This document shows positions 29,064 through 33,239 of a stretch of 64,000 nucleotides of DNA, one piece after another. Every line of letters begins with the position of its first letter. Position 1 is the first letter of the stretch. Position numbers and translations under genes: made by a program. Origin of the DNA: Qipengyuania seohaensis. Lineage in GTDB: Bacteria; Pseudomonadota; Alphaproteobacteria; Sphingomonadales; Sphingomonadaceae. Location: positions 1,833,001 through 1,897,000 of the forward strand of contig NZ_CP024920.1 in the NCBI RefSeq assembly GCF_002795865.1, in the 5' to 3' direction. The notes below the pieces were generated by a model. The model saw nothing but the letters and a program-made list of their open reading frames with translations. It was not told the origin of the DNA and did no database searches.

Positions 29064-29711
29064 TTACCAGCGGACCAGCGGCGGTATCGCCAATCGTCCG
29101 GCCATCGCCATCAGTGCGACGGGGGCGATGTGCCAGATGCCGAGGTGGTCGATCGTATCGATAGGGCACGCGAGACCATAGGCGAAGCTGCCGATCGCGC
29201 CGGCTGCGATGCCGGTGTAGGTACCCGCTGCGTTCAGTGAGACCGGTGCGCCGCGGCGCAGCCACAGTGTCAGGGTCCCTGCCGTAACCAACCCGGATGC
29301 GGCACCTGCCAAGAAGCAGTGGAACCCGTAGGGATCGCTGGACAGTGCGGAAAACAGACCGCCAGCGCCCAGCATGGCCAATGCAGTCAGCGGCAGGAGA
29401 ACCAGCATGGCGGACGACCAGCGCGCACCTTCATGCGTGTTGCCGACGCGCGGGCTGGCCATGCGCAAGACAGCCAGGGCCGCTGCCGCTCCGACCATGC
29501 CGAGCATTCCGTTGGCGATGAAGAAAACCCCCGACGCTTGGCCGGAAACGATGCCGCGCCAAAGACCGTCGACCAATTCGACGAGTATCACGGTGGCGAT
29601 GGCCGACAACGCCACCAGGGCGATGCCGTGCGAAAGCCGGATCGGCGTCACGGGGGCAAGATCGCCCGCCAGATCGTCGATCAGGGAATTAGGGACCCGA
29701 TTCATTGTCAT
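29064..29711 (-). CDS. nrsF: NrsF-family (DUF1109) membrane anti-sigma factor
   Basis: Integral membrane protein of 215 aa with about six helices. The two Cys residues C132 (GFHCF) and C182 (LACPID) match in place the two conserved sensor cysteines of Caulobacter NrsF as I recall them. That protein holds the ECF factor SigF inactive until heavy metals or oxidants act on the cysteines. The ATG at 29711 overlaps the stop of the sigma gene (ATGA), so the pair is translationally coupled. It ends the bufA1-doxX-sigma-nrsF transcript. Confidence 0.9.
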   Translation of the reverse strand: MTMNRVPNSLIDDLAGDLAPVTPIRLSHGIALVALSAIATVILVELVDGLWRGIVSGQASGVFFIANGMLGMVGAAAALAVLRMASPRVGNTHEGARWSSAMLVLLPLTALAMLGAGGLFSALSSDPYGFHCFLAGAASGLVTAGTLTLWLRRGAPVSLNAAGTYTGIAAGAIGSFAYGLACPIDTIDHLGIWHIAPVALMAMAGRLAIPPLVRW

Positions 29712-30238
29712 TCGGCCTTTTCTACGAGCGCGGACAGTTTCTTCAGTCCGCGATGGATATTCACTTTGACCAGGCTTTCGCTCTGGCCGGTCTTGGCGGA
29801 AGCTTCGGAGATGGTCAGCCCTTCGATCTTGACCAACTCGATAACCTCGGCCTGCTTGTCGGGGAGGTGGACGAACAGCCGCTCGAGGCTCATGCGGGCC
29901 ATGACGGCTTCTTCCTCGCTGTCCTCTGGCGCGTCGTGATCGCCAAGCTCGTCTTCCGCGCTGCGATAGACTTTGCGCAAGTGATCGATCCAGCGATACC
30001 GCGCGATCGCGGCGAGCCAGGGGTAGAAGGCCCGCGTCGGGTCCCAGGTGGCGCGCTTGGTATGCACTGCCATCATGACTTCCTGCACCAGATCGTCGAG
30101 CTGCGCGGGGGCCACGCGCTTCCTGAAATAGCGTTCGAGCCACAGGTGGATTTCGGACAGCAGCGCGCGGTACATTTCGCGGTCGCCGTTCTGCGAGGCG
30201 GCCATCATCTGCGCCATCGTGGCTTCATCGGCGATCAT
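29708..30238 (-). CDS. sigF: ECF RNA polymerase sigma factor, SigF type
   Basis: Sigma factor of 176 aa. Region 2 (about 15-85) includes LDDLVQEVMMAVH and the DNA-melting segment ending AIARYRWIDHLRK. Region 4 (about 115-168) has the helix-turn-helix in GLTISEASAKTG. The ATG at 30238 has GGAGG at 7-nt spacing. Pairing with nrsF identifies it as SigF-like. Two matches to the SigF promoter pattern lie about 0.9 kb upstream, controlling both halves of the bufferin locus, including this gene's own operon. Autoregulation is inferred. Confidence 0.88.
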   Translation of the reverse strand: MIADEATMAQMMAASQNGDREMYRALLSEIHLWLERYFRKRVAPAQLDDLVQEVMMAVHTKRATWDPTRAFYPWLAAIARYRWIDHLRKVYRSAEDELGDHDAPEDSEEEAVMARMSLERLFVHLPDKQAEVIELVKIEGLTISEASAKTGQSESLVKVNIHRGLKKLSALVEKAE

Positions 30239-30263
30239 CGCGCGTCCTCCCCCGATCCTGCTA

Positions 30264-30722
30264 TCATTTGGCCCGCCGCGAGGCGAGCGGCGCATCGAGC
30301 GAGATGGCGCCGGCGCCGCGTGAAATCAGGACGGCTGCCAGGGCGACCCACACGATGTGCGTCGTCCACCATGCGTCGGGATAGACGAAGAACTGGATCA
30401 CCAGCGTCATGACCAGCAGGGATAAGGCGGCGAAGCGGGTGAGCAGGCCGAGCACCAGCAAGATGGGAAACAGGTGCTCGGCATAGGTCGCCATGGGCGC
30501 CGCGATATCGGCGGGAATGGGCAGGCCGGTGTATTCGTACTCGAACAGGAAATAGGCGTTGTCAGTAATCGACAGCGCGCTGCCTTCCTCCACCTTGGTC
30601 CGTCCTGATCTCCAGAAAATCCCGGCCAGCGCGACTCGGGTAAGCAGCAGCGCCAGGCTTTCCGGCAGGCGCGAGGCCAGCCAGTCGGTCAAGCGGTCGT
30701 AGGGGGTCAACACTCTCTGCAT
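30264..30722 (-). CDS. DoxX-family membrane protein of the bufferin locus
   Basis: Protein of 152 aa with four predicted helices and the DoxX fold. DoxX proteins commonly travel with bufferin operons; in the Caulobacter gig operon, as I recall, a DoxX protein is the last gene. They may supply reducing or quinone-linked membrane functions for maturation or export. Here it sits between bufA1 (47 bp upstream) and the sigma gene (25 bp downstream) on one strand, so it belongs to the same transcript. Confidence 0.85.
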   Translation of the reverse strand: MQRVLTPYDRLTDWLASRLPESLALLLTRVALAGIFWRSGRTKVEEGSALSITDNAYFLFEYEYTGLPIPADIAAPMATYAEHLFPILLVLGLLTRFAALSLLVMTLVIQFFVYPDAWWTTHIVWVALAAVLISRGAGAISLDAPLASRRAK

Positions 30723-30768
30723 GCGTCACCTGTCGGCTGGCCGGTAGGGGAAGGACGGGAAGTAGGGC

Positions 30769-31056
30769 TCAGCGCTTGATCGCGGTCAGCGAACCCTTGC
30801 CCTTGGCGGTCTTGATCGTTTCGCAGGTGCCCTTCTTGACCAGCTTCCATGCATTGCCCTGGTAATCGCGGGTCGATGTACCGGCGCAGCTGGTGCCTGG
30901 TCCGGCGGCGCAGTCGTTTTCGCCAGCCTTGGCGACGCCGTAACACTTTTCCATCGCGGGGCGCTTCTGCGCGGCAGCAGGGGTGGCGACCATGGTGGTG
31001 GCTATACCGGCGGTCAGGGCGAGCCCGGCAAGGCGGGCGATCGATTGGCTGTTCAT
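30769..31056 (-). CDS. bufA1: BufA1-family bufferin precursor (DUF2282)
   Basis: Protein of 95 aa with a signal peptide (about 1-29, ending TPAAAQ) and a core with four Cys at 38, 49, 57 and 78. The blocks [20 protein letters not shown] and KKGTCE are hallmarks of the DUF2282/BufA1 family. Known bufferins are ribosomal peptides whose Cys are oxidised to thiooxazoles by an MNIO enzyme; they are exported and chelate copper in the periplasm. No bufB/bufC lies on this strand, so it probably relies on the divergent BufBC. Confidence 0.9.
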
Positions 31057-31112
31057 GGCAAGTCTCTCTCGAATGATGCGTCCGGGCGATTGTCGCCGGA
31101 ACTGGCCTGTCA

Positions 31113-31138
31113 TTCGGGAGCGATCGCCGCGCGGTTAC
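31113..31138 (-). promoter_or_regulatory. SigF-type ECF promoter for bufA1-doxX-sigF-nrsF
   Basis: On the minus strand, GTAACC (31138-31133) is followed after exactly 16 nt by CGAA (31116-31113). This is the SigF promoter pattern known from Caulobacter. The -10 element is 57 bp upstream of the bufA1 ATG, leaving a leader of about 50 nt. It is back-to-back with an identical arrangement on the plus strand. Confidence 0.82.
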
Positions 31139-31162
31139 GGAATTGCGAAAATTTTTTCGGCT

Positions 31163-31188
31163 GTAACCGCCGCCATGTCCGGCGCGAA
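31163..31188 (+). promoter_or_regulatory. SigF-type ECF promoter for bufA2-bufB-bufC
   Basis: GTAACC at 31163-31168 is followed after exactly 16 nt by CGAA at 31185-31188. The -10 element is about 50 bp upstream of the bufA2 start. Its -35 element is 24 bp from that of the divergent promoter, so two holoenzymes would sit back-to-back. Two exact matches in one short intergenic region are very unlikely by chance. Confidence 0.85.
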
Positions 31189-31237
31189 CGATCCAGTGTG
31201 CACCGATGCACGATCAGGATCACAAGGAATGGATGCC

Positions 31238-31525
31238 ATGACAATCGCAACCCGCAAGACTGCAACCGCCGCTGCAGCGGCTGCTTTCGCTCTCAGTTCG
31301 ATGAGCGCATTTGCCGCGCCCGCCCCCGCAGGCAGCAGCGGCGCAGCCATCAATTCGGACGATGTGGTCCATTGTTATGGCGTGCATAGCTGCAAAGGCC
31401 AGGCCGACTGCGCGACCAGCGAAAACGCCTGCAAGGGCCAGAACGAATGCAAGGGCCACGGCTTCAAGGCAATGAAAGCCGGTGAATGCCTGACCAAGGG
31501 CGGCACTATCGGCGACATCGGCTGA
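31238..31525 (+). CDS. bufA2: BufA2-family bufferin precursor
   Basis: Protein of 95 aa with a signal peptide (about 1-27, ending SAFAA) and a core with six Cys at 46, 52, 58, 65, 71 and 84. The near-repeats CKGQADC and CKGQNECKG and the final AGECL are typical of BufA2-type metallophores. ATG 31238 is chosen because AAGGA lies 9 nt upstream; ATG 31229 is too close to it. It is the first gene of bufA2-bufB-bufC and is divergent from bufA1. Confidence 0.9.
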   Translation: MTIATRKTATAAAAAAFALSSMSAFAAPAPAGSSGAAINSDDVVHCYGVHSCKGQADCATSENACKGQNECKGHGFKAMKAGECLTKGGTIGDIG

Positions 31526-31623
31526 CGTCCAACCTGTTTGGCGGCCCGGCAGCGGCGGAAACCGGCCCCTTCTTCCGCCCACGTCCCTCGCCGGGCCGCC
31601 ATCCCCCTCACGGAGGCTCCCTC

Positions 31624-32472
31624 ATGAGCGATATCGAGCCATTTCACGGTTTCGGCCTGGGCCTGCGGCGCACGCATTATGCCGACTTTCTTGAAACCCA
31701 GGTGCCGGTCGATTTCGTCGAGGTGATCTCGGAAAACTACATGGTGGAAGGCGGCAAGCCGCTGCGTATCCTTGGGGACATCCGCGAGCGCTATCCGGTG
31801 CTTCTGCACGGCGTCTCGATGTCGGTCGGATCCGCGCATGGGCTTGATGGGGAATATCTGGATCGGCTCGCGGCGCTGGCAAAAAGGATCGACCCGCTCT
31901 GGGTCTCCGATCACCTGTGCTGGACCAGGACGAGCGCCCACAACTCACACGATCTCCTGCCGCTGCCCCTGACAGGCGAGGCGCTGGACGTCGTGTGCCA
32001 GAACATCGATCGCGCGCAGGAGAAGCTAGGTCGGGCGATGCTGTTCGAAAACCCTTCGAGCTATCTCACCTTCCCCGAGGACGAGATGAGCGAATGGGAG
32101 TTCCTTTCCCGGATGACGCGCCGGACCGGCTGTTACCTGCTGCTGGACGTCAACAACGTCTATGTCAGCGCGCAGAACCATGGCTATTCCGCCGCCGAGT
32201 ATATTGCCGGGCTTCCGCTGGACCGTGTCAGGCAGATCCACTTGGCGGGTCACACCCCGGCAACCGAGGATCGCCCCATCGTGATCGACACGCACGACCG
32301 TGAAGTCTGCGACGAAGTCTGGTCGCTTTATGAAGACGCGGTGGCAAGGACCGGACCGGTCGCCACCATGATCGAGCGCGACGACGGCATCCCGCCACTC
32401 TGCAATCTATTGTCCGAACTCGATCGGGCGAGGGCGATATCGTCCGAGAGTGGCCGCGCGAGGGTGGCATGA
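31624..32472 (+). CDS. bufB: BufB, MNIO-family (DUF692) bufferin-modifying enzyme
   Basis: Multinuclear non-haem iron oxidase of 282 aa with a TIM-barrel fold. Likely metal ligands are seen in order in LHGVSM, VSDHLCW, LFENPSS, LDVNNV, HLAGHT and DTHDREV, as in the DUF692 family. It should convert precursor Cys residues to oxidised heterocycles, acting with BufC before export. It is 98 bp after bufA2, and its stop overlaps the bufC start (ATGA). Confidence 0.94.
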   Translation: MSDIEPFHGFGLGLRRTHYADFLETQVPVDFVEVISENYMVEGGKPLRILGDIRERYPVLLHGVSMSVGSAHGLDGEYLDRLAALAKRIDPLWVSDHLCWTRTSAHNSHDLLPLPLTGEALDVVCQNIDRAQEKLGRAMLFENPSSYLTFPEDEMSEWEFLSRMTRRTGCYLLLDVNNVYVSAQNHGYSAAEYIAGLPLDRVRQIHLAGHTPATEDRPIVIDTHDREVCDEVWSLYEDAVARTGPVATMIERDDGIPPLCNLLSELDRARAISSESGRARVA

Positions 32473-33239
32473 TCTCGCTTGCAGAACGGCAGGCCGAAAT
32501 GATGGACTGCCTGCTCGACGAGGAGCGATCCGTTCCCGCCGACTGGACGTCCAGTCAGGCTGCCGGACTGGAGATCTATCGCAACAATTACCGAACCTCC
32601 CTGGTGGAGGCGCTGCGGTCGACCTTCGAGCGGACCGAGCGGCTGGTTGGTGAAGCCAGCTTCGCGCGCGCAGCGGCGCATCATCTCATCACCGCGCCGC
32701 CTTCGGGCTGGACACTCGACCTGGCCGGCCGGGGATTTTGCGAGACCTGTGCCGATCTCTTCGCGCACGATCCCGAGGTCGCGGAACTCGCTTGGCTGGA
32801 ATGGGCAATGCACACGAGTTTCGTCGCGGCCAATTCCACCGCGCTGGACATGACGGACTTTGCGCAAGCGGCGGCGGATTTCACCGACATCGATTGGGAG
32901 CGAATGGTCTTCCACTTCGTGCCGGGCATCGACGTGCGCACCGTGCGCCACGACCTCAAGGCGCTATGGTCCTCGCTGGAAGCCACCGAGGGGCAAGCCG
33001 AGATTGTCCTGCTCGAAAAAGCTTCGACCGCCATCGTCTGGCGCGAGGGCGAGCGCCCCGTTTTCCTCCTCGTTCCCGAAGTGGAGGGTGACGCGCTCTC
33101 GGCCATGCTGGCCGGAGCACCCTATGGAGACGCTTGTCAGAAGATGGTCTCGGCGATCGGCCAGGATCGCGCCGTCGAGACCGCTGGCGCGATGCTGGGC
33201 CGCTGGCTCGGCGAAGGCCTCGTCGCTGGCCTCGCCTAG
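32469..33239 (+). CDS. bufC: BufC/HvfC-family (DUF2063) partner protein
   Basis: Protein of 256 aa whose N-terminal DUF2063 domain (about 5-95) holds the characteristic AGLEIYRNNYRTSLVEAL block. A C-terminal domain of the kind thought to recognise the precursor leader and present it to the MNIO enzyme follows. Its translation is coupled to bufB by ATGA overlap. It is the last gene of the plus-strand bufferin transcript, and its stop overlaps that of the convergent SDR gene. Confidence 0.92.
   Translation: MISLAERQAEMMDCLLDEERSVPADWTSSQAAGLEIYRNNYRTSLVEALRSTFERTERLVGEASFARAAAHHLITAPPSGWTLDLAGRGFCETCADLFAHDPEVAELAWLEWAMHTSFVAANSTALDMTDFAQAAADFTDIDWERMVFHFVPGIDVRTVRHDLKALWSSLEATEGQAEIVLLEKASTAIVWREGERPVFLLVPEVEGDALSAMLAGAPYGDACQKMVSAIGQDRAVETAGAMLGRWLGEGLVAGLA

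Follow-up and report, generated by a model that had tools for sequence, protein, structure and literature searches.

The DNA considered here, hereafter the window, is a stretch of 64,000 nucleotides of the Qipengyuania seohaensis genome (contig NZ_CP024920.1, positions 1,833,001 to 1,897,000 of the forward strand). Between its positions 29,064 and 33,239 lies a bufferin locus in which two different precursors, BufA1 and BufA2, stand beside a single pair of maturation proteins, the MNIO enzyme BufB and its partner BufC. We propose that this one pair probably modifies both precursors. The locus comprises the following features:

29064..29711, minus strand: nrsF, predicted membrane anti-sigma factor (Pfam NrsF, E 3e-36)
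29708..30238, minus strand: sigF-like extracytoplasmic function (ECF) sigma factor (Pfam Sigma70_r2 and Sigma70_r4_2; 4-bp overlap with nrsF)
30264..30722, minus strand: doxX, DoxX/HvfX-like membrane protein (Pfam DoxX, E 2.7e-17; NCBIfam HvfX 55.4 bits, cut-off 80)
30769..31056, minus strand: bufA1, DUF2282 bufferin precursor with four Cys (Pfam DUF2282, E 2.8e-25)
31113..31138, minus strand: sigmaF-type promoter (GTAACC-N16-CGAA, exact match) upstream of bufA1
31163..31188, plus strand: sigmaF-type promoter (GTAACC-N16-CGAA, exact match) upstream of bufA2-bufB-bufC
31238..31525, plus strand: bufA2, bufferin precursor with six Cys and three Cys-Lys-Gly motifs (NCBIfam Cu_RiPP_BufA2 101.5 bits, cut-off 60)
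31624..32472, plus strand: bufB, MNIO enzyme of the BufA2-type clade (Pfam MNIO, E 2.8e-108; NCBIfam MNIO_BufB 380.9 bits, cut-off 310)
32383..32385, plus strand: codon of BufB Asp254, putative equivalent of BufB2-Asp251 (PMC13097082); ERDD aligns to ERDF of 3bww
32469..33239, plus strand: bufC, DUF2063 partner (Pfam DUF2063, E 4.8e-16; 4-bp overlap with bufB)

All seven genes were confirmed at these positions. They form two arms, bufA1-doxX-sigF-nrsF on the minus strand (31056 down to 29064) and bufA2-bufB-bufC on the plus strand (31238 to 33239), and it is in this divergent sense that the precursors are back-to-back, as the initial annotation had put it. The identities that it had assigned from the sequence were recovered as well: a BufA1-type precursor whose four Cys align with those of its relatives, a BufA2-type precursor with six Cys well above the model cut-off, one BufB and one BufC, each matched by its Pfam family in one gene, and a DoxX protein with the locus's own sigma and anti-sigma factors. 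BufA1 is not directly followed by a bufB and a bufC of its own; doxX comes next, starting 46 bp past the bufA1 stop, and bufB-bufC lie on the opposite strand after bufA2.

In Caulobacter vibrioides, the precursors are distributed between two operons, CC3254-3257 (with sigF-nrsF) and CC2907-2905, each with its own MNIO and DUF2063 protein (PMC3511200, accessible parts), in agreement with the initial annotation, which gives these systems one BufBC set per precursor. These Caulobacter biosynthetic gene clusters (BGCs) resemble the window locus in their gene families, in the GTAACC-N16-CGAA motif and in the presence of DoxX and sigF-nrsF, but they have dedicated enzymes in two separate operons, whereas the window has one pair and one locus for both precursors. 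The literature already describes tandem precursors, as well as genomes in which several precursors are found with a single MNIO/PME-type 1 pair, and the accessible text leaves it open whether one complex modifies all precursors or the extra ones stay unmodified (PMC12452194). The general question of one pair facing several precursors is therefore already in print, and the window presents the same general situation. On the other hand, the statistics given there place sigma factor and NrsF genes in Buf1 and not in Buf2 BGCs, whereas in the window sigF-nrsF share the locus with BufA2BC.

The genome of Q. seohaensis is a single contig of 2.94 Mb, 99.99% complete. We searched the whole of it for other bufB genes, the check that the initial annotation had asked for, and it contains exactly one MNIO, one DUF2282 and one BufA2. 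Thus, in this closed genome, there is no second BufB for BufA1, and we know of no other type of enzyme that carries out this Cys modification of BufA1. The nearest named BufB found is that of Qipengyuania aquimaris (85% identity). Among 199 genomes of the family Sphingomonadaceae, MNIO was found in 70, DUF2282 in 66 and BufA2 over the cut-off in 42. Of the 39 genomes with both precursors, a single MNIO match is found in 26, and two or three matches in 13, including one (G018) whose two matches are contig-end pieces of what may be one gene. BufA1 is encoded divergently upstream in 24 of the 26 one-MNIO genomes, directly in 21 and with sigF-nrsF in between in three (G027, G076, G182). In a survey of 289 genomes of the class, 16 besides the source genome carry BufA2 over the cut-off; 14 of them, outside the family, also carry DUF2282, each with two or more MNIO matches (read by eye). 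Hence genomes elsewhere in the class appear as a rule to have a pair per precursor, and in the family sharing is frequent. One genome outside the family (G208, locus L291), with a divergent BufA1, a weak BufA2 (39.9 bits) and one MNIO, is a possible further case and was not counted.

We annotated 193 loci with purpose-built profiles, and 32 of them have exactly the gene order of the window; among these 32, four come from duplicate genomes (L225, L236, L238 and L243 repeat L134, L122, L114 and L106). Other arrangements were also met. In G155, a bufA1 copy beside a BufA1-type bufBC is itself broken by an in-frame stop (L170), and the same genome has a locus of the shared type (L130). Three loci (L118, L149 and L151, in G016, G023 and G120) carry BufB-BufC of a distinct lineage, beside which neither a DUF2282 nor a BufA2 precursor was detected. 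At L292 (G268:C110), BufB-BufC, BufA2-BufB-BufC, BufA1 and DoxX follow one another on one strand, BufA1 being downstream of the enzymes.

The descent of BufB was followed in two trees, one of 84 rows (30 in a BufA1-type clade, 47 in a BufA2-type clade and 7 outlying) and one of 161 rows (40 BufA1-type, 121 BufA2-type), the latter built from BufB matches of at least 330 bits in L102-L186 and L211-L294 with identical rows merged. In both, the window BufB falls inside the BufA2-type clade. Four loci, L148 in the family, L246 in a Sphingomonas metagenome-assembled genome (MAG), and L248 and L249 in Asticcacaulis, share with the window two arms diverging from one intergenic region with BufA1 and BufA2, but keep a BufB and a BufC on each arm, and the BufB of their BufA1 arm belongs to the BufA1-type clade. 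Removing the BufA1-side pair from such a doubly dedicated locus would give the layout of the window; hence we infer a loss, and most likely the BufA1 arm once had its own BufBC. Alternatively, the pair may have been gained in the doubly dedicated lineages. A tandem BufA1-BufA1-BufB in G192, with a BufB of the BufA2-type clade, would represent another switch of this enzyme lineage to BufA1; it was not counted because of its long branch and unsure placement.

A natural deletion of BufA2 is found among the relatives. Sixteen loci with 15 distinct BufB (L233 is the same locus as that of G121) have NrsF-SigF-DoxX-BufA1 on one side and BufB-BufC on the other, without BufA2. They belong to Erythrobacter (including E. 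longus and strain NAP1), two Altererythrobacter MAGs, an Erythrobacteraceae MAG and the survey genomes G041, G121 and G180. A branch (96/77; present in 94% of 200 bootstrap trees) separates their 15 BufB from the rest; these BufB are nested in the BufA2-type clade and adjoin L220, which retains BufA2. In the 12 genomes behind the named loci, some of them MAGs, BufA2 over the cut-off was found in none (one sub-cut-off match of 28 bits) and exactly one MNIO in each; G041, G121 and G180 gave no BufA2 match. We also considered a BufA2 hidden between bufA1 and bufB and rejected it, the best profile score across the 16 gaps being 10.2 bits (E 0.015) versus 95-100 bits in five of five positive controls; Cys-containing frames are present in these gaps and none is bufferin-like. 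An exact sigmaF motif lies upstream of BufA1 in all 16 loci and upstream of BufB too in six. For the core domain, the ratio of nonsynonymous to synonymous differences (pN/pS) of BufA1 is 0.14 in the loci without BufA2 (13 of the 15) and 0.14 in the window group (10 chosen shared loci), and that of BufA2 in the latter is 0.15. BufA1 is thus strongly constrained in both groups. Since BufBC is kept without BufA2, this pair of BufA2 lineage has been retained with only BufA1-type precursors, as far as found.

One residue of BufB follows this loss. In BufA2-type (Cys-Lys) enzymes, Asp replaces Phe250 of FonB, and in a model BufB2-Asp251 contacts the Lys of BufA2; the site is unconserved in DUF2282 enzymes (PMC13097082, accessible parts). 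Asp254 of the window BufB, which follows the catalytic ERD in the motif ERDD, would be the equivalent of BufB2-Asp251. The site had been named in that article before we surveyed the column. In our alignment, Asp occupies site 254 in 46 of 48 shared BufB (one pair beside both precursors), in 4 of the 15 BufB without BufA2 (the others being 7 Glu, 3 Gly and 1 Ala) and in none of 32 dedicated BufA1-type BufB. The set of 48 adds G116, G002, G078, G114 and G123, where BufA1 had been hidden by an overlap filter, and omits L291; the set of 32 omits G192. A pattern-based count on a slightly different shared set gave Asp in 43 of 44 and the same numbers for the BufB without BufA2. Among the 115 columns conserved to at least 95% in the shared set, 97 are unchanged inside the clade without BufA2; site 254 changed five times there, the most of all 115, compared with two changes outside it, where the branch length is about 5.5 times as great. 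Judged simply by retention, only position 46 is less well kept. The drift of Asp254 points to BufA2 as a genuine substrate of the enzymes that retain Asp, and to a continuing need for the rest of the enzyme in lineages without BufA2.

The Cys of the precursors bear on the same question. In Buf1, it is the central Cys that undergo modification, the outer two being joined in a disulfide (PMC12452194, accessible parts). Four Cys are found in all 44 distinct BufA1 cores from shared loci and all 15 from loci without BufA2, in 42 of the 43 that have a dedicated BufB and in 25 of the 28 solitary ones. Two of the 66 family genomes with DUF2282 have no MNIO (G051 and G128, of one genus, 99 and 100% complete; loci L209 and L210), and in their DUF2282 proteins the outer two Cys are kept and exactly the central two are gone. 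Moreover, the two precursor types resemble each other. The NCBI BufA2 model matches the window BufA1 at E 3.3e-4, and an hhalign comparison of BufA1 and BufA2 profiles gives 94.8% (E 5e-8), a score flattered by seeds picked for mutually similar Cys patterns, so that the NCBI match is the independent support. All 17 chosen sequences show the same correspondence, the four BufA1 Cys matching Cys 1, 3, 4 and 6 of BufA2; thus one enzyme would meet similar positions in similar cores.

Both arms carry the sigmaF promoter consensus known from Caulobacter, GTAACC-N16-CGAA (PMC3511200). The two exact motifs lie between bufA1 and bufA2 and face outward, which fits the compact metal-stress unit predicted in the initial annotation. 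Across the 193 loci, 121 of 180 motif matches lie at most 400 bp upstream of a precursor; over the same distance, the reversed motif gave 0 of 9 and two scrambled -35 forms 1 of 3 and 0 of 1. The regulatory genes sigF-nrsF share the divergent locus with bufA2 and directly precede bufA2-bufB-bufC in L117, L125 and L141.

With a probability of roughly 0.78, we consider that one BufBC pair modifies both precursor types within a self-regulated bufferin unit, that this pair is of BufA2-type descent, the BufA1 pair having been lost, and that in Erythrobacter it serves BufA1 only. Of the two options offered in the initial annotation, this is the one in which BufB accepts both precursors, and it is supported, at the level of sequence comparison, by the nested loss of BufA2 from loci that retain BufBC and BufA1, by the drift of Asp254 and by the loss of the central Cys in two genomes without MNIO. 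The unit could work as follows. By analogy with Caulobacter, metal stress would relieve the hold of NrsF on sigmaF, which would then read outward from the two promoters and transcribe bufA1-doxX-sigF-nrsF and bufA2-bufB-bufC together. BufC would capture both precursors before Sec export, and BufB would oxidise Cys to thiooxazoles, at the two central Cys of BufA1 and at several of those of BufA2. The modified peptides would reach the periplasm and hold copper or another metal there. One descendant lineage, Erythrobacter, appears to have lost BufA2 and to use the same BufBC for BufA1 alone.

Several observations weigh against this reading. The evidence from the loci without BufA2 comes from a single inherited event, not 15, and an unrecognised substrate could occupy BufBC there. 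G041, G121 and G180 carry a second, lipoprotein-like BufA1 elsewhere, so the substrate of their BufBC need not be the divergent BufA1. Asp at site 254 is not universal where BufA2 stands alone (35 of 43 BufB, pattern-based), and substitution at the Phe250 site of FonB left activity (PMC13097082); being tolerated, such a change indicates that the site tunes and does not decide. At position 46 of BufB, Pro is present in 98% of the shared set and kept in 1 of 15 BufB without BufA2, which mostly have Gln; the position is possibly a second substrate-linked site. Exact motifs stand on both arms in just 23 of 50 shared loci (41 on the BufA2 arm, 25 on the BufA1 arm; exact forms only, spacer 16 or 17, a few genomes counted twice). 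As for the Cys argument, the DUF2282 matches of G051 and G128 are weak (48 and 41 bits) and come from one genus, so that these proteins may be a separate line. G398, outside the family (L309), has a DUF2282 with all four Cys at a contig end and no MNIO match, the only such case among 100 class genomes with DUF2282; its assembly (320 contigs, 92% complete) is fragmented and makes the MNIO absence unsure, and the case still misfits. Finally, the unmodified BufA1 peptide could have a function of its own that accounts for its retention.

This last point leads to the explanation that competes best with a two-substrate BufBC, although we regard it as unlikely. Only BufA2 would be modified, and BufA1 would be exported unmodified as a thiol or disulfide protein, for example a metal sink or a sensor beside NrsF. 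Unmodified precursors have been named as an alternative in general form (PMC12452194), FonBC is selective around Cys and leaves substrates with a charged residue after Cys unprocessed (PMC13097082), and the four-Cys DUF2282 of G398 without a detected MNIO points the same way. Against it, BufBC is retained beside BufA1 where BufA2 is gone, and in G051 and G128, where no MNIO is present, the missing Cys are precisely the two central ones that the 44 shared BufA1 cores and the 15 from loci without BufA2 keep. Far less credible is a BufBC retained mainly for BufA1, with BufA2 a minor or decaying partner in the window lineage. The loss of BufA2 in the related Erythrobacter would agree with it, but in the window group BufA2 is about as constrained as BufA1 (pN/pS 0.15 versus 0.14), 46 of the 48 shared BufB retain Asp254, and bufA2 comes first behind the promoter in its operon. 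Modification of BufA1 by a second enzyme encoded elsewhere, the other option of the initial annotation, would follow the two dedicated sets of Caulobacter (PMC3511200) and the 14 of 14 both-precursor class genomes outside the family with at least two MNIOs, but we give it next to no weight, the single MNIO of this one-contig, 99.99% complete genome already excluding it at genome level for MNIO enzymes.

The unit is also found outside the family. The complete set of seven genes is present in two Microbulbifer genomes (Gammaproteobacteria), at L216:2362-6610 and L221:2386-6609. These copies are 92% identical over 4.25 kb and lie at different sites with sharp ends, their flanks having no match; they are 71-73% identical to Qipengyuania DNA, and their BufB falls inside the Qipengyuania group. 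Both genomes have other MNIOs (3 and 2 in total). The flanks of L216 have a GC content of 0.44-0.46 versus 0.616 in the unit. For the LysR gene beside the L221 unit, relatives of at least 76% identity occur in 47 of 48 Microbulbifer genomes, the L221 genome included. Contamination as the origin of the Microbulbifer copy is thus unlikely for L221, whose LysR neighbour is typical of the genus; the site of L216 differs. Oxalobacteraceae bacterium OM1 (L244) has a tandem bufA1-bufA2-bufB-bufC and one MNIO; the locus is on an 11 kb contig, and its BufB nests among Sphingomonadaceae, which could reflect either transfer or contamination.

We lean, less firmly than for the shared modification itself, towards a broader account, in which an MNIO pair of BufA2 lineage came to serve two substrates once the dedicated BufA1 pair had been lost, and switched wholly to BufA1 in Erythrobacter, the switch being written at site 254 of BufB, where Asp is held with BufA2 and drifts without it, and in which the seven genes would be a portable self-regulated cassette. 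Among the titles and abstracts listed in our searches of openly licensed PMC articles, none deals with this layout, the BufA2 loss or the residue drift, and the accessible text of PMC12452194 makes no mention of the divergent layout of BufA1 and BufA2BC, the nested BufA2 loss or the drift. Among the closest known enzymes are the FonBC captophorin or 5-thiooxazole MNIOs, described together with an AlphaFold model of BufA2B2C2 (PMC13097082), which resemble the window pair in having an MNIO with a PME1 partner. At the FonB-Phe250 site, Asp is reported there for BufA2-type enzymes, and the window BufB has Asp as well; the enzyme logos in that article are built per precursor group, and the accessible parts report no BufB2 acting on a DUF2282 precursor. 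The window locus and its relatives offer a ready-made series, from dedicated pairs through a shared pair to a BufA1-only pair and DUF2282 without an enzyme found, that bears on the question left open in PMC12452194, and it nominates one residue that tracks substrate loss. If the proposal is true, it would help to predict the substrate range of MNIOs from sequence, and the locus would encode a compact enzyme pair acting on two different metal-binding scaffolds.

The remaining features of the locus can be described briefly. Against the NCBI equivalog AntiSigF_NrsF (cut-off 300), NrsF reaches just 28 bits, and DoxX is likewise below its NCBIfam cut-off (55.4 versus 80 bits); both are thus distant members. 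NrsF has two Cys, in HCFLAG and LACPID, the same number as the conserved Cys of Caulobacter NrsF (PMC3511200). The N-terminus of BufA1 has a stretch that, judged by eye, resembles a signal peptide. The start of bufA2 is 31229 or 31238, the second being better spaced from AAGGA as read off the sequence. A structure model of BufC (mean predicted local distance difference test score, pLDDT, 92) has the RRE-containing partner-protein fold and matches TglHI 8hi7 (E 2.3e-5, template modelling (TM) score 0.58) and NGO1945 3dee (E 1.8e-4, TM 0.52). Against solved structures, a BufC profile found 3dee at E 0.0018, and the single BufC sequence gave no useful match.

The whole Q. seohaensis genome contains 11 exact sigmaF motifs, versus 3 for the backward control. 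Besides the two in the locus, one lies 128 bp upstream of an MsrA-like gene (L095, G000:C1 ~1456000) and another 58 bp upstream of a FAD-disulfide-reductase-like gene (L094, G000:C1 ~1067430), both genes being named by eye; they are possible further members of the sigmaF regulon.

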